Source: Collinsella sp. AK_207A
GTDB lineage: Bacteria; Actinomycetota; Coriobacteriia; Coriobacteriales; Coriobacteriaceae
DNA: 64,000 nt
Assembly (NCBI RefSeq): GCF_902501965.1
Contig: NZ_CABWID010000010.1
Coordinates: 372,001-436,000, forward strand
Direction of reading: 5' to 3'
The notes under the pieces were generated by a model that did no database searches, was not told the DNA's origin, and saw nothing but the letters and a program-made list of their open reading frames with translations. Below are positions 21,664 to 48,208 of this stretch, piece after piece (positions within the stretch are counted from its first letter, which is position 1; every line of letters starts with the position of its first letter). Both the position numbers and the translations under genes were made by a program.

Positions 21664-21775
21664 CCCGTGGCGTCCGGGGCATGGCCTGCGCGATTTCTGA
21701 GCGAACTGCGGAAACGGCGAGGCTGTTTTCCAGTCTCGCGAAGCTGAGCGTAGGCCATGCCCCGGACGCCACGGG
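21664..21775. repeat. Palindrome A: 28-bp unique arms around a conserved 56-nt loop
   Basis: Arms at 21664-21691 and 21748-21775 are complementary at every position except one G-T pair. The loop 21692-21747 is nearly identical to the reverse complement of the loop of palindrome B (24377-24431), although the arms are unrelated. It lies between divergent genes, so it cannot serve as a terminator for either. Confidence 0.85.
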
Positions 21776-23321: not shown

Positions 23322-24305
23322 ATGCCGACCATCGATCTGAAGAAGTCTTTGAGCGTGTACAAGAGCTTGCGTGTGTTCTCTGGTTCCTCGAACCGTCCGC
23401 TCGCGGAGAAAATCGCCGCCGAGCTGGGGGTGGAACTCGCGCCCATCACGCTCGAGCAGTTCGCGAACGGCGAGATCTACGCCCGCTACGACGCGACCAT
23501 CCGCGGCGCCGACGTGTTCTTCATCCAGTCCGTGTCCGGCCGCGTAAACGACATGCTCATGGAGCTGCTCATTGCCACCGATGCCGCCAAGCGCGCCTCC
23601 GCCCGCAGCATCACCGCCGTCATCACGCACTACGGCTACGCCCGCCAGGACCGCAAGGCCGGCCCCCGCGAGCCCATCACCGCACGCCTGGTGGCCAACC
23701 TGCTCGAGTGTGCCGGCGTGGACCGCATCATCACGCTTGACCTGCACCAGGGCCAGATTCAGGGCTTCTTCGATATTCCGGTGAACCACCTGTCGGCCCT
23801 GCCGCTCTTTGCCGACTACTACAACGATATGAACTTCGACACCGACAACCTCGTTGTCGTGTCGCCCGACGTGGGTCGCGCCAAGGCTGCCAAGAAGCTG
23901 TCCGACATGCTGGGCTGCTCCATCGCCATCGCCCACAAGGGCCGTCCGCGCCACAACGCCGCTGAGGTCATGGGTATCATCGGCGACATCGAGGGCAAGA
24001 CCTGCGTCATCAACGACGACATGATCGACACCGCAGGCACCCTGTGCGCGAGCGTCCGCGAGCTGAAGAAGATGGGTGCCGGCGACATCTACGTGTGCGC
24101 CACGCATGGTATCTTCTCCGGCCCCGCGATCGAGCGCCTGAACGACGCGCCCATTGTGGAATGCGTGGTCACGGATGCCATTCCCGTGCAGACGGGTGGC
24201 AAGATCAAGACCATCTCCGTGGCGGGCGAGTTTGCCGGCGCCATTGCCGCTGTGTACAACGAGGAGTCCGTGTCGCTGCTTGTCGGCGGCGACTTCGCGA
24301 TGTAG
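23322..24305 (+). CDS. prs: Ribose-phosphate pyrophosphokinase (PRPP synthase)
   Basis: Makes PRPP from ribose-5-phosphate and ATP, feeding purF and other pathways. The protein has 327 residues, class I type. It has FSGSSNRPLAEKIAAELG near 15, HYGYARQDRKAGPREPI near 105 (ATP/flexible loop), DLHQGQIQGFF near 140, VVVSPDVGRAKAAKKL near 175 and the PRPP loop VINDDMIDTAGT near 228. GAAGGAGAAGGGG upstream supports ATG 23322. It probably shares a transcript with glmU. Palindrome B follows the stop. Confidence 0.96.
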   Translation: MPTIDLKKSLSVYKSLRVFSGSSNRPLAEKIAAELGVELAPITLEQFANGEIYARYDATIRGADVFFIQSVSGRVNDMLMELLIATDAAKRASARSITAVITHYGYARQDRKAGPREPITARLVANLLECAGVDRIITLDLHQGQIQGFFDIPVNHLSALPLFADYYNDMNFDTDNLVVVSPDVGRAKAAKKLSDMLGCSIAIAHKGRPRHNAAEVMGIIGDIEGKTCVINDDMIDTAGTLCASVRELKKMGAGDIYVCATHGIFSGPAIERLNDAPIVECVVTDAIPVQTGGKIKTISVAGEFAGAIAAVYNEESVSLLVGGDFAM

Positions 24306-24331: not shown

Positions 24332-24476
24332 GCCCGCCCCGTGCATCCCTCGGGTCGGTCGCCGTTTACCCTGCACTCAGCTTTGCGAGACTGGAAACGG
24401 CTTTGCCGTTTTCGCAGTTCGCTCAGAAATCGTGCAGGTTGAACGGCGACCGACCCGAGGGATGCACGGGGCGGGC
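24332..24476. repeat. Palindrome B: 45-bp unique arms around the conserved loop
   Basis: Arms at 24332-24376 and 24432-24476 differ at only three positions. The 55-nt loop (24377-24431) is the reverse complement of palindrome A's loop with about five substitutions and one deletion. It lies between prs and the lipoprotein gene on the same strand. Confidence 0.85.
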
Positions 24477-29460: not shown

Positions 29461-29478
29461 CCTGGACCTGTGTCCAGG
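29461..29478 (+). terminator. Short hairpin after the ECF operon
   Basis: CCTGGAC and GTCCAGG form a perfect 7-bp stem with a 4-nt loop. It sits immediately before the first unit of the repeat array. No T-run follows. Confidence 0.4.
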
Positions 29479-29480
29479 CA

Positions 29481-29856
29481 GTTGCTAAGCAGGTCGTCCG
29501 GGAAGGGCGGGCAGTTGCTAAGCAGCTCTTCCGGGAAGGGGCGGTTGCTAAGCATACAGTCCACGAAGGGTGGGCGGTTGCTAAGCACGCTTTCCACGAA
29601 GAGAAGGTTGCTAAGCAGAACCACCTCGAAGGGGGCGGTTGCAAAGCAGATTGACCGCGAAGGGAAGCTTGCTAAGCAAATCGTCCACGAATGGGCTGTT
29701 TTTCGCCCCTTGATGGCAGATGTGCTTAGCAACTCCCAGTTGGTGGCATAGCTGCTTAGCAACCGCCCTCTTCCCGGAAGAGCTGCTTAGCAACCGCCCT
29801 CTTCCCGGAAGAACTGCTTAGCAACGCCCCTCTCGGTGGCAGATGTGCTTAGCAAC
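29481..29856. repeat. Convergent array 1 of GTTGCTAAGCA units (7 forward, 5 inverted)
   Basis: Forward units start at 29481, 29514, 29544, 29577, 29607, 29638 (variant) and 29668 (variant). Inverted units (TGCTTAGCAAC) start at 29723, 29753, 29784, 29815 and 29846. Spacing is 30-33 bp throughout. The ~20-bp spacers are also related (a CCACGAAGGG-like core). The centre (29690-29716) holds GGGC...GCCC around a T-run. No gene fits; frame is not kept between units. The 634-base gap 29397-30030 holds this array and otherwise nothing recognised. Confidence 0.9.
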
Positions 29857-30030
29857 TGCCCAACAATCAGCGCCCAGCGCCCAGCGTCCAGTGGGCCGTC
29901 GGGTTTGTCCGATTGTGCGGCGCACCCCTTCCGAGTCTCATTGCCTAGAACGTCTGCTCGCGGGTAGGATAAACGGGATTCAGATTGACGCGTGACGCGT
30001 TCGACCATGCCACCCCCCATCGGAGGTTCC

Positions 30031-32119: not shown

Positions 32120-32238
32120 GGGCCCGCGTGTGGGCGGAGTCCGGTGCCGGGCCTATGCTCCCGCGCGCAGTTCGGCGAAGCCGCTGTTTGAGCACGGGAT
32201 CATATGCCCGGCACCGGACTCCGCCCACACGCGGGCCC
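32120..32238. repeat. Palindrome D: perfect 33-bp arms with a variant loop
   Basis: Arms at 32120-32152 and 32206-32238 are fully complementary. The 53-nt loop has GCGCAGTTCG and GCTGTTTGAGC pieces that resemble the loops of palindromes A-C, but it is more divergent. It lies between convergent genes and may also act as a bidirectional terminator. Confidence 0.8.
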
Positions 32239-32252
32239 GACAGGTAGCCGAG

Positions 32253-33068
32253 CTACAGCTCGATCTCCAACGTGACGGGGCAGTGGTCACTGCCGAAGAT
32301 GTCGCTCCGAATGCCCGCGCTCTTCACGGCGCTCGCAATCGAATCGCTCACCAAAAAGTAGTCGATGCGCCAGCCCGCGTTGTTCTTCCGCGCGTTGAAG
32401 CGGTAGCTCCACCAGCTGTAGGCGCCCGTCTCGTCCGGGTGCAGCGAGCGGAACGTGTCCGTGTAGCCCGCATCGAGCAGCTCACCGAACTTACCGCGCT
32501 CCTCGTCCGAGAACCCGGCGTTGCCGGCGTTGCTCTTGGGATTCTTGAGGTCGATCTCGTTGTGCGCCACGTTGAAGTCGCCGCAGGTGACGATAGGCTT
32601 GTCCGTCTCCTTCTCCAAACCGCGCAAAAAGCCGCGGTAGGCGTCGTCCCAGGCCATGCGCACGTCGATGCGGGCGAGCTCGTTCTGCGCGTTGGGCGTG
32701 TAGACGTCTACGAACCAGAAGCGGTCGAACTCCAGGGCGCAGACGCGGCCCTCGGTAGCCGCCGCGGCCACCAGGTCGCGCGCGTCATCGCTTGCAAATT
32801 CCAGCACGCTGTCGGCATGGCGCACCGAGATCGGAGTCTCGCGGCTGAACACCGCCGTGCCCGAGTATCCCTTGCGCTCGGCGTAGCTCCAGGTCTGCGT
32901 GTAGCCGGGAAGATCGACCTCCACCTGGCCCTCTTGCAGCTTGGTCTCCTGCAGGGCGAGGACGTCGGCGTCAAGCTCCGCGGCCACCTCGGCAAAGCTT
33001 GGCTCCTTCTTCATGACGGCGCGCAGCCCGTTGACGTTCCACGAAGCGAACGTATAGGTATTCGACAT
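32253..33068 (-). CDS. xth: Exodeoxyribonuclease III
   Basis: An AP endonuclease and 3'-5' exonuclease of base-excision repair. The protein has 271 residues, the usual size. It contains FASWNVNGLRA near 7-17, LQETKLQEG near 40, the catalytic Tyr/Asp region DVYTPNA near 105, CGDFNVAHNEIDL near 150, WRIDYFLVS near 230 and the terminal GSDHCPVTLEIEL (Asp/His of the active site). AAAGGAG precedes ATG 33068 on the minus strand. Confidence 0.95.
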   Translation of the reverse strand: MSNTYTFASWNVNGLRAVMKKEPSFAEVAAELDADVLALQETKLQEGQVEVDLPGYTQTWSYAERKGYSGTAVFSRETPISVRHADSVLEFASDDARDLVAAAATEGRVCALEFDRFWFVDVYTPNAQNELARIDVRMAWDDAYRGFLRGLEKETDKPIVTCGDFNVAHNEIDLKNPKSNAGNAGFSDEERGKFGELLDAGYTDTFRSLHPDETGAYSWWSYRFNARKNNAGWRIDYFLVSDSIASAVKSAGIRSDIFGSDHCPVTLEIEL

Positions 33069-33252
33069 GCTTCTCCTTTAGATACGGTGCGTAGCGCCCG
33101 CGGGGGCGACGAATCGCAGCCTATGGTAGCCCATGGCACCCGTCTGCGGCTTCAGTTTGGGCTTCGGCCTTCCGCTCTCTTTGTGCCCGCCGTGTTGCGT
33201 GCTCGTCCTGCGGCTACAATGAGTAAGATTGCACAAATGCGAAAGGACCTCC

Positions 33253-35016
33253 ATGGCGAACGACACCAAAACCTGGCGCTGCGGCAAGTTCGAGCTCAAG
33301 TTCGACCGTCCGCGCATCATGGGAGTGCTGAACGTCACACCCGACTCCTTTTCCGATGGCGGCGAGCACCTGGACAAGGACGTCGCTATCGCCCATGGAC
33401 TGAAGATGCTGGACGAGGGCGCGGATATCATCGACGTGGGCGGCGAGTCCACGCGGCCTGGCTTCACGCCCGTTTCGGCCGATGTCGAGGCCAAGCGCGT
33501 GCTGCCCGTGGTGCGAGCGCTCGTGCAGAAGGGTGCCATCGTCTCCATCGACACGCGTCACGTGGACGTGGCCAAGGCCGCGGTGCGCGTGGGCGCGAGC
33601 ATCGTGAACGACGTGACGGGCTTCACCGACCCCAAGATGGTCGAGTTCGTGAAGAACAGCACCTGCGGCCTCATCGTCATGCACGCGGGCGACCCGCTCG
33701 AGGGCGAGGCGCCGCGTCGGCACACCGCCGTGCAGCTCGACACCTCGGCCGCGGCCTTTGCGGCCGAGCGCGCCCGCGAGGTGGAGGAGGGCACGGCTCC
33801 CAAGGGTCGCTTGGGCAAGAGCCGTATCGCCCCGGCGGGTGAGCGCAAGCTTGCGGGCGGGGCAGTGCAGCCGCCGCTGCCGTTTGCCGACATGCCAGCG
33901 CCCAATGGGTCAGAGGCCGCTGAAGCTGTCGATGACGCTATCGCCGCGACCGCGGAGGCTGGCTCCTTCAGCAAGACCCCCGATCAGGTTTCCGCCGAGA
34001 TCGAGCTCACCGCCGACGCTCTGGTTGCCCAGGACGAGCGCGCCATGCCGAAGGACGAGCTGGCGAGCATCATGGCCCGTTCCGCGCGTCGCGATGCCGC
34101 GACCGTGCCGACCTCGCAGCTCCGGCGCTTCACGCTGCCGGATTCCGCTCCCATCATGCGTCGCGTGATGGGCTTCCTCTCCGACCAGGCGCGCTCGCTC
34201 GTGCATGCCGGGGTGGATCGCAGCCGCATTTGCATCGATCCGGGTCCTGGTTTTGGCAAGGACGCCAACGAGGATATCGTCATTCAGCGCGAGACCGCCA
34301 AGCTGGCCTCGCTCGGCTATCCGCTCATGTGCGCCGTTTCGCGCAAGCGTTTCGTGGGCGCCATCTCCGGCGTGGAGCAGGCTGCCAAACGCGACGCGGC
34401 CACCTTCGGCGTGTGCCTGGGGGCCATCCAGCTGGGTGCCAACGTGGTGCGCGTGCACAACGTGTCGGGGTTCGCGCAGTTCCTGAACGGGTATTGGGCC
34501 ATCGCCCGCCCGCAGCCGCGTCGCGCGTTCGTGGCGCTCGGTTCCAACATGGGCCAGCGGGTGGATAACATCCGCGCCGCCAAGCAGCTCATCGCCGAGA
34601 TCCCCATGACCTGCGTTTCAAGCTGCTCGCGCATCTACGAGAGCGAGCCCGCCTACGAGCAGCGTCAGGAGCCGTTCGCCAACGCGGTGATCGAAATCAA
34701 GACGGAGCTGGCCCCGCTGATCCTTTTGGACGAGCTGCTGAACGTTGAGAAGCGCCTGGGCCGCAAGCGCGGCCGGGGGACGCGTCCCAACGGGCCGCGC
34801 GTGATCGACTGCGACCTCATCTGGATGGACGGCGAGGTTCACGGCGGTGACAAGCTGCAGCTCCCGCATCCCGGCTTGGGTGAGCGCGACTTCGTGCTCG
34901 TGCCGCTCGAGGACCTCATGCACAACCCGGCGCGGTTCTTCCGCTTTGAGGGTGTGGACGTGAAGGAGCCGGAGGAGCGCTACGGCCACGTGATCGGCGA
35001 GCTCGGTACGCTCTAG
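33253..35016 (+). CDS. folP: Dihydropteroate synthase fused to HPPK, with a ~150-residue insertion
   Basis: 587 residues for two consecutive folate steps. The DHPS part starts IMGVLNVTPDSFSDGG (~18-33) with DVGGESTRPGF near 70 and IVNDVTGF near 118, then reaches VMHAGDP near 142. Residues ~145-297 are an Ala/Glu-rich, low-complexity insert absent from standard enzymes. DHPS then resumes at IMRRVMGFLSDQA with CIDPGPGFGKD near 330 and VSRKRF near 365. HPPK (FolK) follows from ~425: FVALGSNMGQRVDN, GRKRGRGTRPNGPRVIDCDL and LQLPHPGL. AAAGGACCTCC supports ATG 33253. Whether the insert alters folding or sulfonamide binding is unknown. Confidence 0.92.
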   Translation: MANDTKTWRCGKFELKFDRPRIMGVLNVTPDSFSDGGEHLDKDVAIAHGLKMLDEGADIIDVGGESTRPGFTPVSADVEAKRVLPVVRALVQKGAIVSIDTRHVDVAKAAVRVGASIVNDVTGFTDPKMVEFVKNSTCGLIVMHAGDPLEGEAPRRHTAVQLDTSAAAFAAERAREVEEGTAPKGRLGKSRIAPAGERKLAGGAVQPPLPFADMPAPNGSEAAEAVDDAIAATAEAGSFSKTPDQVSAEIELTADALVAQDERAMPKDELASIMARSARRDAATVPTSQLRRFTLPDSAPIMRRVMGFLSDQARSLVHAGVDRSRICIDPGPGFGKDANEDIVIQRETAKLASLGYPLMCAVSRKRFVGAISGVEQAAKRDAATFGVCLGAIQLGANVVRVHNVSGFAQFLNGYWAIARPQPRRAFVALGSNMGQRVDNIRAAKQLIAEIPMTCVSSCSRIYESEPAYEQRQEPFANAVIEIKTELAPLILLDELLNVEKRLGRKRGRGTRPNGPRVIDCDLIWMDGEVHGGDKLQLPHPGLGERDFVLVPLEDLMHNPARFFRFEGVDVKEPEERYGHVIGELGTL

Positions 35017-35990: not shown

Positions 35991-36659
35991 ATGAACAAGA
36001 AAGCCAAGCGTCGCCTGATCGTTGTGGGCGGCATCATCGTTATCGCCATGCTTGTGATCGTTGCGGTTGCCGGCTCCGGCGGTGCCGCATCGTCCCTTTC
36101 CATCTCCGACGTTTTGAGCGGTGACTACGAGGGCAAGAAGGTCCAGGTGACGGGCTCCGTGGTGGCCGATTCGGTGAGCGCCAAAGGCTCGACGGCCGAG
36201 TTCAAGATCCAGCCCGAAGACGGTGACGCCTCGCAGCAGCTCGCGGTGAGCTACTCGGGTGCGCTGCCGGCAACGTTCGGTGCCGGCGTGGTGGCCATCT
36301 GCACCGGCACGGTAACCAACGGCACGCTCGATGCCTCCGAGATGGTGACCAAGTGTCCCTCCAAGTACGAGAGCGCCGAGGGTTCGCTCACGGTGAAGGG
36401 CCTGAAGGACCAGGCGAGCACGCTCACCGGGGCCGACGTGAAGGTCTGCGGCTACGTGCGCGGCCAGATCAACGGCGCCGATGCGGATTACCGCTTCACC
36501 ATCGAAAGCCAGGGCGAGAAGATGAACGTCGTCTACGACGGCGGCTTGGACGACAACATCAAGGATGGCACCGCGCTCGTCATCGCCGGACAGCTCGACT
36601 CGGACGGCAACTTCCATGCCAGCGAGCAGCCGAGCATCGACTCATCTGTGAAGGAATAG
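35991..36659 (+). CDS. ccmE: CcmE-like haem chaperone, CxxxY variant
   Basis: 222 residues. A basic N-terminus and one membrane helix (LIVVGGIIVIAMLVIVAVAG, ~9-28) are followed by an OB-fold-like region (KKVQVTGSVVADSV...) in which Cys122-Pro-Ser-Lys-Tyr126 replaces the usual HxxxY haem-binding motif. A CxxxY form is known from CcmE of some archaea and delta-proteobacteria. An extra C-terminal OB-like segment (VKVCGYVRGQIN onward, ~150-215) makes it longer than usual. It should take haem from CcmC/CcmAB and pass it to CcmF. AAGGAGGAG supports ATG 35991; TATACT at 35925-35930 may be the -10 box. Confidence 0.82.
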   Translation: MNKKAKRRLIVVGGIIVIAMLVIVAVAGSGGAASSLSISDVLSGDYEGKKVQVTGSVVADSVSAKGSTAEFKIQPEDGDASQQLAVSYSGALPATFGAGVVAICTGTVTNGTLDASEMVTKCPSKYESAEGSLTVKGLKDQASTLTGADVKVCGYVRGQINGADADYRFTIESQGEKMNVVYDGGLDDNIKDGTALVIAGQLDSDGNFHASEQPSIDSSVKE

Positions 36660-36667
36660 CCCGTCAG

Positions 36668-36800
36668 GTCCGTTCGCCCGCGCGTCGCAGCGCATGCCCG
36701 AAGCGACACTCCACAGCGAACTGAGCGAGCGACGAAGTCGTTTGCCGGTCTCGCGAGGACTGAACGTAGGGCATCCGCTGCGATGCGCGGGCAAACGGAC
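36668..36800. repeat. Palindrome C: 32-bp unique arms around a related loop
   Basis: Arms at 36668-36699 and 36769-36800 pair at all but three positions (two of them G-T). The 69-nt loop shares AGCGAACTG and GGTCTCGCGAGG-type pieces with palindromes A and B. It lies between ccmE and ccmF on one strand. Confidence 0.75.
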
Positions 36801-36845
36801 CGGCGACTTTGGTGCGGCACGCGATAGGGAAAGGAAATCAACCTG

Positions 36846-39047
36846 ATGATCTCTACCATAGGTAATGTTTTGCAGGTCGTGGCGCTGATCGTGTCGGCGA
36901 TCGCGGCCATCTCGCTCGTTGCGGGCGCGCGCGGCCACCATGAGGGGCTGGTCAACGCCGGCTACTTGATGGTGTTCGGCAACGCCATCGCGCTGACGGC
37001 GTGCCTGGGGCTCATCCTCGTCTGCTTCCTTACGGAGAACTACAGCATCGCGTACGTGGTCTCCAATTATCCGAGCACTACGAGCGCGCTCAAGCCGCTC
37101 TACCTGGTCTCCGCCGTGTGGGCCGGGCGCCAGGGATCGCTGCTGCTGTGGACGTGGCTCATCTCGCTCTATGCCGCCGTGGTCGCGTGGAAGCGCATGC
37201 ACGTGACGGACGACCTCTCTTCCGTGGCCCTCGGCGTGACCGAGGTCATCGTCGCGCTCTTCCTCTGCACGCTCGTCTTCTCGGATTCCAATAACCCCTT
37301 CATGCCCACGGCCTCGGAGTACCTGAACGCCGATGGCACGCTGGCGCAGCGGGTGGGCGGCATGAACCCGCTGCTCATGCACTGGGCGATGATCCTGCAT
37401 CCGCCTGCAACGTTCATCGGCTATGCCGGATGCGCCCTGCCCTTTGCCTACGCCATGGCGGCGATCATCACGGGCGACCTTTCCGCTCGTTGGGTTGAGC
37501 TCGCCGACCGCCTGGCTATTTTCAGCTTCATCTTCCTGACCATCGGCATGTCGCTCGGCGCCGTGTGGGCCTACGTGGTGCTCGGCTGGGGCGGCTTCTG
37601 GGGCTGGGACGCCGTGGAGAACGCGAGTCTCTTCAGCTGGCTCACCGCGGTGGCGATGATCCACAGCTTCACGATGTACCGCAAGCATGGCATCTTCCGC
37701 CGGTGGAGCATGTTCGCCGCGACCATCACCTTCATCTTCGTGGTGCTCGGCACGTTCATCACCCGTTCCGGTCTGGTGCAGTCCGTGCACGCCTTTGCCC
37801 AGGACCAGGTCTCCACCTACCTCTTCCTGGCGATCATGGTGGTCGCGGCGCTCGCGTTCCTCATCGGCCTGCTTTACCGCAACGCCGAGTTCGGCGAGGA
37901 CGACGACCAGATCGAGTCGCTCTTCTCCAAGAACGGCTCTTACTTCATCACCAACCTGGTGATGATCGTGGCTGCGGTGCTCTGCGCCTACCTGACCGTC
38001 TCGAGCGCGCTGCCCAGCTGGATGCCGCTTGGCGGGTCCGTGGTGGCTGCGGGTGCCTTCAACGCGGTGGCGCGTCCCGTTGGCACGCTGTTCTGCCTGC
38101 TCATGGCCGTGTGCCCCATGCTTGGTTGGCGCAAGACCGACGGTGCCAAGTTCGCCCGCAACATGCGCGTGCCGGCGATTCTGGGCGCGGTGCTGTTCGT
38201 TGCGCTCATGGTGCTCTTTGTGACGAAGCTCGCACCCGAGTACGACGCCATCGTGGCGGCCGGCGGAGACGCGGCGACCACGCTCACCGAGCAGGGCCCG
38301 CGCATCTACTACTTCGCGCTCACCGTGGTGGCCTTTGCCGCCGCGTCGCTGCTCTTTGCCAGCTCGGCGTACCTGCTTGCGCGCGGCGTGGGCGCGCGTC
38401 GTCGCAACAAGGGCGAGAACGCGCTTGCTGCCCTGGTCAACCTGTTCCGTCGGTCCCCCGCGCAGGCCGGTGGCTATCTTACGCACCTGAGTGTGGCGAT
38501 CGTGCTGGTGGGCCTGGTGGGCTCGAGCATGTACGTGCGCGAGCAGACGCTCAACCTCACCGCCACGGCTGGGGAGAGCGGCCAGGTGGGTGCCTACACC
38601 CTGACGTACGAGGACGGGCGCGAGTACTCCACCACCGGCAACAACAAGCTCAAGGAGATCACGCTCAAGGTGACGGATGCCTCGGGCAAGGAACTCGGCA
38701 CGCTCAAGCCCTCGCTTGAGGTGAGCGCCACCAACACCGGTCAGCAGACCCTGCACGCCGGCGTGCTCACGTTCCCGGGCGAGGACCTGTTCGTGGCCTT
38801 CCAGGGTCTGAACGCCGACGGCTCGCTTTCCGTTCACGTGAAGGTGAACCCGCTCATCCTACTCAACTGGATCGGCGGCGGCGTCGCCGTGCTGGGTATC
38901 GTGCTGGCGTTTGCGCCGCGTCGTGCCACGCCGCTGCTGGCGGCCGATGAGCGCGTTCGCGTTGAGGCGGCTGAGGAAGAGGCCGTTCGGGCCGAGCGTG
39001 CGCAGGTGCGCACCAAGCGCCGGGCGCGTCCGAGGAAGAAGTCCTAG
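36846..39047 (+). CDS. ccmF: Cytochrome c haem lyase subunit CcmF
   Basis: A large membrane protein of 733 residues with about 15 hydrophobic segments. The periplasmic haem-handling WWD domain is GWGGFWGWDAVENASLFSW near 247-265. It also has AVWAGRQGSLLLWTWLI near 95 and the conserved His residues in MLHWAM-like (LLMHWAMILHPPA near 175) and FVVLGTFITRSGLVQSVHAFA near 298. A periplasmic loop (~570-660) precedes the last membrane helix, and the C-terminus is rich in Arg/Lys. CcmF joins haem from CcmE to apocytochrome c. CcmH and CcmG are not in the window. Confidence 0.9.
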   Translation: MISTIGNVLQVVALIVSAIAAISLVAGARGHHEGLVNAGYLMVFGNAIALTACLGLILVCFLTENYSIAYVVSNYPSTTSALKPLYLVSAVWAGRQGSLLLWTWLISLYAAVVAWKRMHVTDDLSSVALGVTEVIVALFLCTLVFSDSNNPFMPTASEYLNADGTLAQRVGGMNPLLMHWAMILHPPATFIGYAGCALPFAYAMAAIITGDLSARWVELADRLAIFSFIFLTIGMSLGAVWAYVVLGWGGFWGWDAVENASLFSWLTAVAMIHSFTMYRKHGIFRRWSMFAATITFIFVVLGTFITRSGLVQSVHAFAQDQVSTYLFLAIMVVAALAFLIGLLYRNAEFGEDDDQIESLFSKNGSYFITNLVMIVAAVLCAYLTVSSALPSWMPLGGSVVAAGAFNAVARPVGTLFCLLMAVCPMLGWRKTDGAKFARNMRVPAILGAVLFVALMVLFVTKLAPEYDAIVAAGGDAATTLTEQGPRIYYFALTVVAFAAASLLFASSAYLLARGVGARRRNKGENALAALVNLFRRSPAQAGGYLTHLSVAIVLVGLVGSSMYVREQTLNLTATAGESGQVGAYTLTYEDGREYSTTGNNKLKEITLKVTDASGKELGTLKPSLEVSATNTGQQTLHAGVLTFPGEDLFVAFQGLNADGSLSVHVKVNPLILLNWIGGGVAVLGIVLAFAPRRATPLLAADERVRVEAAEEEAVRAERAQVRTKRRARPRKKS

Positions 39048-47933: not shown

Positions 47934-47989
47934 GGCAGCCGTTGGCCGGATGAGGCCGCTGCGTGCCGGGGTCTCAGAATGCCGGGGAC

Positions 47990-48208
47990 GTTGCTAAGCA
48001 GACTCTCCACCCAGGGGGACGTTGCTAAGCAAACTGACCACCCAGAGGGACGTTGCTAAGCAAACTGACCACCTAGATACATTTGCTAAGCAGATTTGCC
48101 TCCAAGGGCGCTAAAACGGGCTCTTCGTGGCAGATATGCTTAGCAACCGCCTTCTGGTGGCGGGACTGCTTAGCAACCGCCCCGTGAGTGGCAGGACTGC
48201 TTAGCAAC
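47990..48208. repeat. Convergent array 2 of GTTGCTAAGCA units (4 forward, 3 inverted)
   Basis: Forward units start at 47990, 48021, 48052 and 48082 (variant TTTGCTAAGCA). Inverted units start at 48137, 48167 and 48198. Spacing is 30-31 bp. The centre (48093-48136) resembles that of array 1 next to the first inverted unit (TGGCAGATATGCTTAGCAAC). The 455-base gap 47934-48388 holds only this array and a possible -10 box (TAGAAT, 48329-48334) for the LacI gene. Confidence 0.9.

Follow-up and report, generated by a model that had tools for sequence, protein, structure and literature searches.

Palindrome C, which lies between ccmE and ccmF in the 64,000-nt stretch of Collinsella sp. AK_207A DNA analysed here (the window), is best read, with confidence close to even, as one member of a family of scattered hairpins that would usually serve as mRNA 3′-end elements. 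Its members, present in multiple copies in several bacterial groups, fold as one long stem that holds a conserved, asymmetric core. The element at the ccm locus is composed of the following parts:

36667..36699, + strand, 5′ arm of palindrome C, 33 nt (sequence and arm pairing)
36700..36723, + strand, conserved 5′ core strand of C, GAAGCGACACTCCACAGCGAACTG (alignment of C-type copies)
36724..36746, + strand, variable apical hairpin of C, termed P3 (RNAalifold and fold)
36747..36768, + strand, conserved 3′ core strand of C, GGTCTCGCGAGGACTGAACGTA (alignment of C-type copies)
36769..36801, + strand, 3′ arm of palindrome C, 33 nt (sequence and arm pairing)

The two arms pair over 33 columns, comprising 30 Watson–Crick pairs, one G·T pair, and two other mismatches, and enclose a loop of 69 nt (36700–36768). 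Folded as RNA, C reaches −89.9 kcal/mol (z-score, −8.9), with none of 200 shuffled sequences folding equally well, and the fold z-score as DNA is −5.6. The palindrome reported at this site by the first-pass annotation is real by its 33-nt arms, 69-nt loop, and RNA fold z-score, and the loop is indeed longer than those of palindromes A (56 nt) and B (55 nt), by 13–14 nt against the 13 nt claimed. The assertion that the three loops have words in common stood in part: all three palindromes carry an exact AGCGAACTG (B on the minus strand), whereas TCTCGCGAGG is exact in C only, having one mismatch in A and two in B (the latter by reading the sequence). In the window, AGCGAACTG has three matches against 0.79 expected, a number reached by 4 of 100 shuffles, and TCTCGCGAGG with at most one mismatch has eight against 10.85 expected. 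Short loop words by themselves are weak evidence for kinship; it is the whole element that places C beyond chance, through its fold relative to shuffles, 15 other loci in the genome, and a covariance model, R1, that recovers A and B. The other hairpins of the window concerned are as follows:

21664..21775, + strand, palindrome A, short-loop variant (arms 21664–21691/21748–21775, 56-nt loop)
24332..24476, − strand, palindrome B, short-loop variant (arms 24332–24376/24432–24476, 55-nt loop)
32120..32238, + strand, possible degenerate fourth member D (27.9 bits with R1 and 20.9 bits with R3, both weak)

A BLAST search with C located 16 places in the genome including C itself, the 15 others at E values of 1e-24 to 7e-9, and a search with A located 14 places including A and B, with C not among them (E ≤ 0.001). 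R1 was built from 17 C-type copies and therefore contains C by construction, but neither A nor B. It scored C at 111.7 bits, A at 83.3, and B at 63.8 in the window, the next hairpin (32120–32238) reaching 27.9, and its 35 rows for the genome, reverse-strand echoes among them, come down to 21 separate places. The 17 C-type copies align almost gap-free in the layout variable arm, CCCGAAGCGACACTCCGCAGCGAACTG, variable hairpin, CAGTCTCGCGAGGACTGAGCGnAGGG, matching arm, with about 15–22 pairs in the arms of most copies, and RNAalifold assigns 39 pairs to them, 21 of which show at least one double compensatory change, in support of the fold. C had been described as a diverged member of the family of A and B. 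Membership is borne out by BLAST and by the recovery of A and B with R1, but C is not diverged, as its loop type is the commonest; from the R1 scores in the window and the prevalence of the C-type loop (17 aligned copies), C is the typical form, and A and B are shortened variants. The recovery of C by a structure-aware search, to which the first-pass annotation had tied its membership, gave a divided result: a BLAST search that used only A misses C at E ≤ 0.001, whereas R1, made without A and B, recovers both. With R3, a model from 22 copies of other species containing no sequence from the source species, C ranks first in the window (21.7 bits; E, 0.003), ahead of further long hairpins that reach 20.9 and 19.4 bits, a small margin attributable to the difference of own-type loops from the loops of other species. 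Hairpin D has 50-nt arms that are 92% complementary, lies 14 nt from the stop codon of a minus-strand ORF (32253–33068), and may be a decayed fourth family member. Clusters of inverted repeats with GTTGCTAAGCA at 29477–29862 and 47983–48208 constitute a separate repeat family.

The position of the copies relative to genes was surveyed for 107 copies (21 from the own genome, 46 from other Collinsella, and 40 from other genera of Coriobacteriales), using gene calls from ORFs and GC frame, a rough method. In 94 of them the core runs antisense to a gene that ends close by, with its stop codon no more than 43 nt off (in one copy the two overlap by 8 nt), the median distance to the stop codon among the Coriobacteriales copies being 19 nt; one of the remainder has stops on both sides, six are sense, and six are neither. 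The 25 copies from Krumholzibacteriota are distributed similarly (15 antisense, 4 both, 0 sense-only, and 6 neither). Opposite-strand pairs less than 600 bp apart are arranged minus-then-plus in 12 of 12 cases among the listed rows, judged by eye (own C15, G068, G069, G098, G082, G809, two in G828, two in G817, G825, and G837), the order expected for convergent genes, and there is one close pair on the same strand, in G021. Over 60 copies, T makes up 34% of nucleotides 1–4 and 41% of nucleotides 5–8 on the mRNA side of the stem; the corresponding figures for the opposite flank are 17% and 15%. The flanking genes looked at are ordinary chromosomal genes; those adjoining own copies encode LeuA, a sigma-70 factor, Hsp90, a histidine kinase, and FolD as identified by Pfam, and GroEL, an aldolase, IlvC, SerC, and GrpE as named by eye. 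At groEL, aldolase, and usp (named by eye), the element is kept across species with differing arms. A groEL-like gene of Atopobiaceae (L216) likewise ends at a copy of the element.

Several copies depart from this arrangement. Palindrome A is flanked by two ORFs read away from each other (by eye, pth-like and glmU-like) and not by a gene 3′ end; B keeps to the arrangement, its core being antisense to an ORF, prs-like by eye, that ends at 24305. The sense exceptions are C and five others. In three loci of Peri-/Peregrinibacteria (L171, L224, and L233), the hairpin is in frame within a queG-like gene, where it contributes ~25 extra residues ahead of the CGSC motif; the stretch with the hairpin has some 30 residues, compared with about 8 in the best-matching solved relative.

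The setting of C in a ccm operon, as proposed earlier, was confirmed by Pfam for both neighboring genes:

35991..36659, + strand, ccmE (PF03100), stop codon 7 nt ahead of C
36846..39047, + strand, ccmF (PF01578 and PF16327), start 44 nt past C

The gene order from ccmE continues with ccmF, an ABC ATPase, CcmB, and a second cytochrome-c-assembly protein. Relative to ccmE, C has the sense orientation, i.e., it is inverted with respect to 94 of the 107 copies and is one of the six inverted ones. It has no T-rich tail in either direction, and a consensus-based terminator scan called no site at A, B, or C. A search for ccmF gave matches in 15 of 43 genomes including the source, one by a 25-base match only. 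The ccmE–ccmF spacer could be delimited in 12 relatives, where it measures 76–295 nt and holds ordinary hairpins; the end of ccmE was not found in G057. The broader model R2 has no match to the family core at ccmE–ccmF in any of these 12 relatives, and the matches of a relaxed core pattern in 3 of the 12 spacers are treated as chance because R2 lists none there. The suggestion that C affects the coupling of ccmE with ccmF is, on these sequence comparisons, not specially favoured. Upstream in the window, ORF 33229–35016 has pterin-binding (DHPS-type) and HPPK domains and is a fused folate gene.

Outside the source genome, the feature common to all groups is the core ACAUUCCGCAG–hairpin–CGAGGACGU, enclosed by nearly perfect arms that are specific to each locus, and it was found in Collinsella, Coriobacteriales, Krumholzibacteriota, a few Patescibacteria, UBP16, and Mogibacterium. 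R1 matched 7 of 39 genomes including the source genome, the best score in the 38 relatives being 56 bits, and R2 matched 39 of 43 Collinsella genomes. R3 gave matches in 68 of 197 genomes of Coriobacteriales, where weak matches may be plain hairpins since R3 gives such hairpins about 20 bits, in 12 of 296 genomes of the phylum Actinomycetota, in 4 of 286 genomes of the phylum of the Peregrinibacteria genome, and in 25 of 80 Krumholzibacteriota genomes. A scan with the pattern AACATTCCGCAG-N5-35-CGAGGACGTT retrieved 78 stretches against about one expected by our own estimate, mostly from Collinsella, Enorma, Atopobiaceae, Slackia, and other Coriobacteriia. Nine come from elsewhere (four Peri-/Peregrinibacteria, three Krumholzibacteriia, UBP16, and Mogibacterium), and eight of these are enclosed by long hairpins, the exception being L202. 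For the twelve chosen pattern loci, the 11 genomes covered (all except that of L221) have 1–10 R3 matches each. C had no match in plasmids and phages. A phage origin was rejected, as the eight viral pattern matches do not form the hairpin; a viral search with a 17-base word gave six matches, near chance by our own estimate.

The arm sequence of C is unique, as had been claimed, yet the 16 own arms compared keep a faint similarity (45.5% identity at positions 8–16 versus 36.7% when shuffled; 0 of 500 shuffles). The simple arm rule yielded no arms from five own and two relatives' copies, and poor arms from one own copy. The flank words ACGCAGG and GTGGGA/ATGGGA are each present at 21 of 107 copies, compared with 0.5% and 1.1% of control windows, and together with the arm similarity they favour copying of the whole hairpin over insertion of a core into old terminators. 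In G021 and G047 (L144, L146, L147, and L149), copies at different genes have similar whole arms, unlike the own-species copies. A comparison of 12 groEL orthologues found four substitutions made on both sides of the stem, an indel that both arms share, and two changes to G·U only, with mixed outermost pairs; in seven usp orthologues the arms are almost unchanged, which speaks against a purely mutational view. The set grp3 mixes at least two loci and was left out of the orthologue comparisons. In Krumholzibacteriota, 18 of 24 copies have perfect arms, with 775 Watson–Crick pairs against 9 mismatches in total (24 of 25 copies; the minus-strand L380, whose arms do not pair, was omitted).

Wobble pairs were tallied by strand, with 4 of the 107 copies dropped. 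A reading in which arm wobble proves the RNA strand was rejected, because the conserved core inflates the tally of 221 versus 88; once it is left out, the antisense copies give 82 versus 66 (p, 0.22), and the arms, lacking a strand preference in wobble, give no sign of RNA-level selection. P3 has more G·U on the mRNA strand (31 versus 10; p, 0.0015, a generous value as the copies are related). The stem of the queG-like group has several G·U and no A·C on the sense strand, which speaks for RNA at these copies. The concerted change of the arms with little wobble suggests correction by template switching, a process described as homogenising the arms of inverted repeats (PMC8604942, PMC7202029). 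Template switching is inferred here because a single mismatch should hardly affect the RNA folding of a stem as stable as −137 kcal/mol. Mismatches in the core, by their persistence across phyla, are probably selected.

In the usual orientation, the transcribed strand would present ACGUCCUCG–P3–CUGCGGAAUGU within the stem and act as an intrinsic terminator or a hairpin protecting the 3′ end, with the core possibly serving as a site for recognition by a protein or an RNase. The element would spread by copying of the whole hairpin, and the arms would then drift in concert as template switching corrects one arm against the other, so that each locus acquires near-perfect arms of its own while the core is held by selection. 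C belongs to a subfamily that multiplied in the source species and, inverted in the ccm operon, is most likely non-terminating and tolerated. The weak U-rich tail and the lack of terminator calls at A, B, and C speak against a 3′-end role, as does the arm wobble without strand preference; the location of A between divergent genes, the six sense copies, and the in-frame copies in queG-like genes do not fit a terminator. More broadly, and tentatively, the copies may represent a cross-phylum, self-spreading class of gene-end hairpins, in which a core of ~20 nt would recruit a widespread bacterial factor, either to the 3′ ends of mRNA or to single-stranded DNA, and arms matching those of no other copy would evolve pairwise by template switching. 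Most unexpected are the cross-phylum spread and the way in which the two arms evolve as a pair.

In a different account, a small mobile DNA hairpin (MITE- or REP-like) has its core read by a mobilising enzyme on single-stranded DNA and gene 3′ ends are tolerated landing sites. The fixed orientation of the copies, together with the occupation of the same gene 3′ ends across species, is hard to square with mere tolerance; moreover, the flanks show no target duplication by eye, C is without matches in plasmids or phages, and the viral pattern matches examined are not hairpins. The account is unlikely on balance, even with the species-specific burst of one loop type (17 aligned copies; at most 56 bits in 38 relatives), the patchy distribution across phyla, the in-frame copies in queG-like genes, the place of A between divergent genes, and the arm wobble without strand bias in its favour. 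That the core was instead inserted into the loops of older ordinary terminators, the arms being the old terminator stems, would agree with the plain GC-rich hairpins without core at the ilvC and ccmE–ccmF sites of relatives, whose stems are too diverged for comparison; we regard it as improbable, given the greater-than-shuffled similarity of own arms, the flank words shared beyond the arms, and the similar whole arms at different G047 genes.

Long duplexes with conserved internal loops, some of them within co-directional gene pairs, could also be expected of a processing element, in which RNase III cuts the duplex at a site set by the internal loops of the core and linked genes receive different mRNA lifetimes; at C, ccmE would be uncoupled from ccmF. 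No RNA-level constraint on the arms is seen and the ccm spacers of relatives have plain hairpins, making this reading quite improbable. Chance, i.e., an ordinary palindrome having short words in common with A and B, would be compatible with the near-chance rates of these words and with the absence of C from the BLAST results with A alone, but it is contradicted by the genome-wide family (BLAST, alignment, covariation, R1, and pattern scan) and has next to no probability.

If the preferred reading as a dispersed 3′-end hairpin is true, gut Coriobacteriia and unrelated phyla have, close to housekeeping genes (GroEL-, aldolase-, IlvC-, Hsp90-, and sigma-factor-like), an element that Rfam does not contain, and two questions would become testable: what reads the core, and whether the near-perfection of the arms comes from selection on RNA or from mutational correction. 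It would also be a caution that paired substitutions in long stems, normally taken as evidence of a functional RNA, may be products of template switching. In Rfam 15, the window matched tRNA only, C had no match at E ≤ 5, and at 12 other loci searched with E ≤ 10 the FMN riboswitch was the one model to attain its cut-off, the other listed matches, mostly of miRNA type, staying below theirs. A published description of the hairpin family was not found in the open-access literature searched. Readings as kink-turn, attC, or CsrA site, weighed on their consensus features, were dropped.

Intrinsic terminators likewise have a GC-rich hairpin soon after the stop codon and a T-enriched tail on the mRNA side, whereas the family has a far longer stem, conserved internal loops, and a weak tail. 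REP/BIME elements are hairpin repeats, many of them at gene 3′ ends; the family also consists of hairpin repeats, but REPs are not known to have, as it does, conserved internal loops enclosed by arms that differ from copy to copy. Pneumococcal and MITE-like repeats are recognised by sequence shared over the whole repeat; in contrast, the family has locus-specific near-perfect arms, shares only the inner core, and spans phyla. Skipping-rope RNA is a similar element, but this candidate was rejected, as no Rfam model matched the copies at 12 loci and none was met in the open-access literature searched. Collinsella-1 (RF01700, named in PMC2864571) was also rejected, having no match to the window, C, or the 12 loci. 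Palindromic candidate RNAs are known from gut microbes (PMC8040213), none of those named in the part of that paper drawn on being tied to the hairpin family. SPRITE, described as rho-independent-terminator-like (PMC10969869), BOX, RUP, and MITE-like repeats are, like the family, short repeats dispersed in chromosomes (PMC10969869, PMC3049150). The coding palindromes of nematomorph mitochondria are among the near-perfect inverted repeats whose arms are homogenised by template switching, and the parts of those papers used here mention no shared conserved core such as the family has (PMC8604942, PMC6649704). Rickettsia palindromic elements include a palindromic element in frame in a protein gene (PMC10969869) and, likened by description, resemble the three queG-like cases, whereas nearly all copies of the family lie outside genes.
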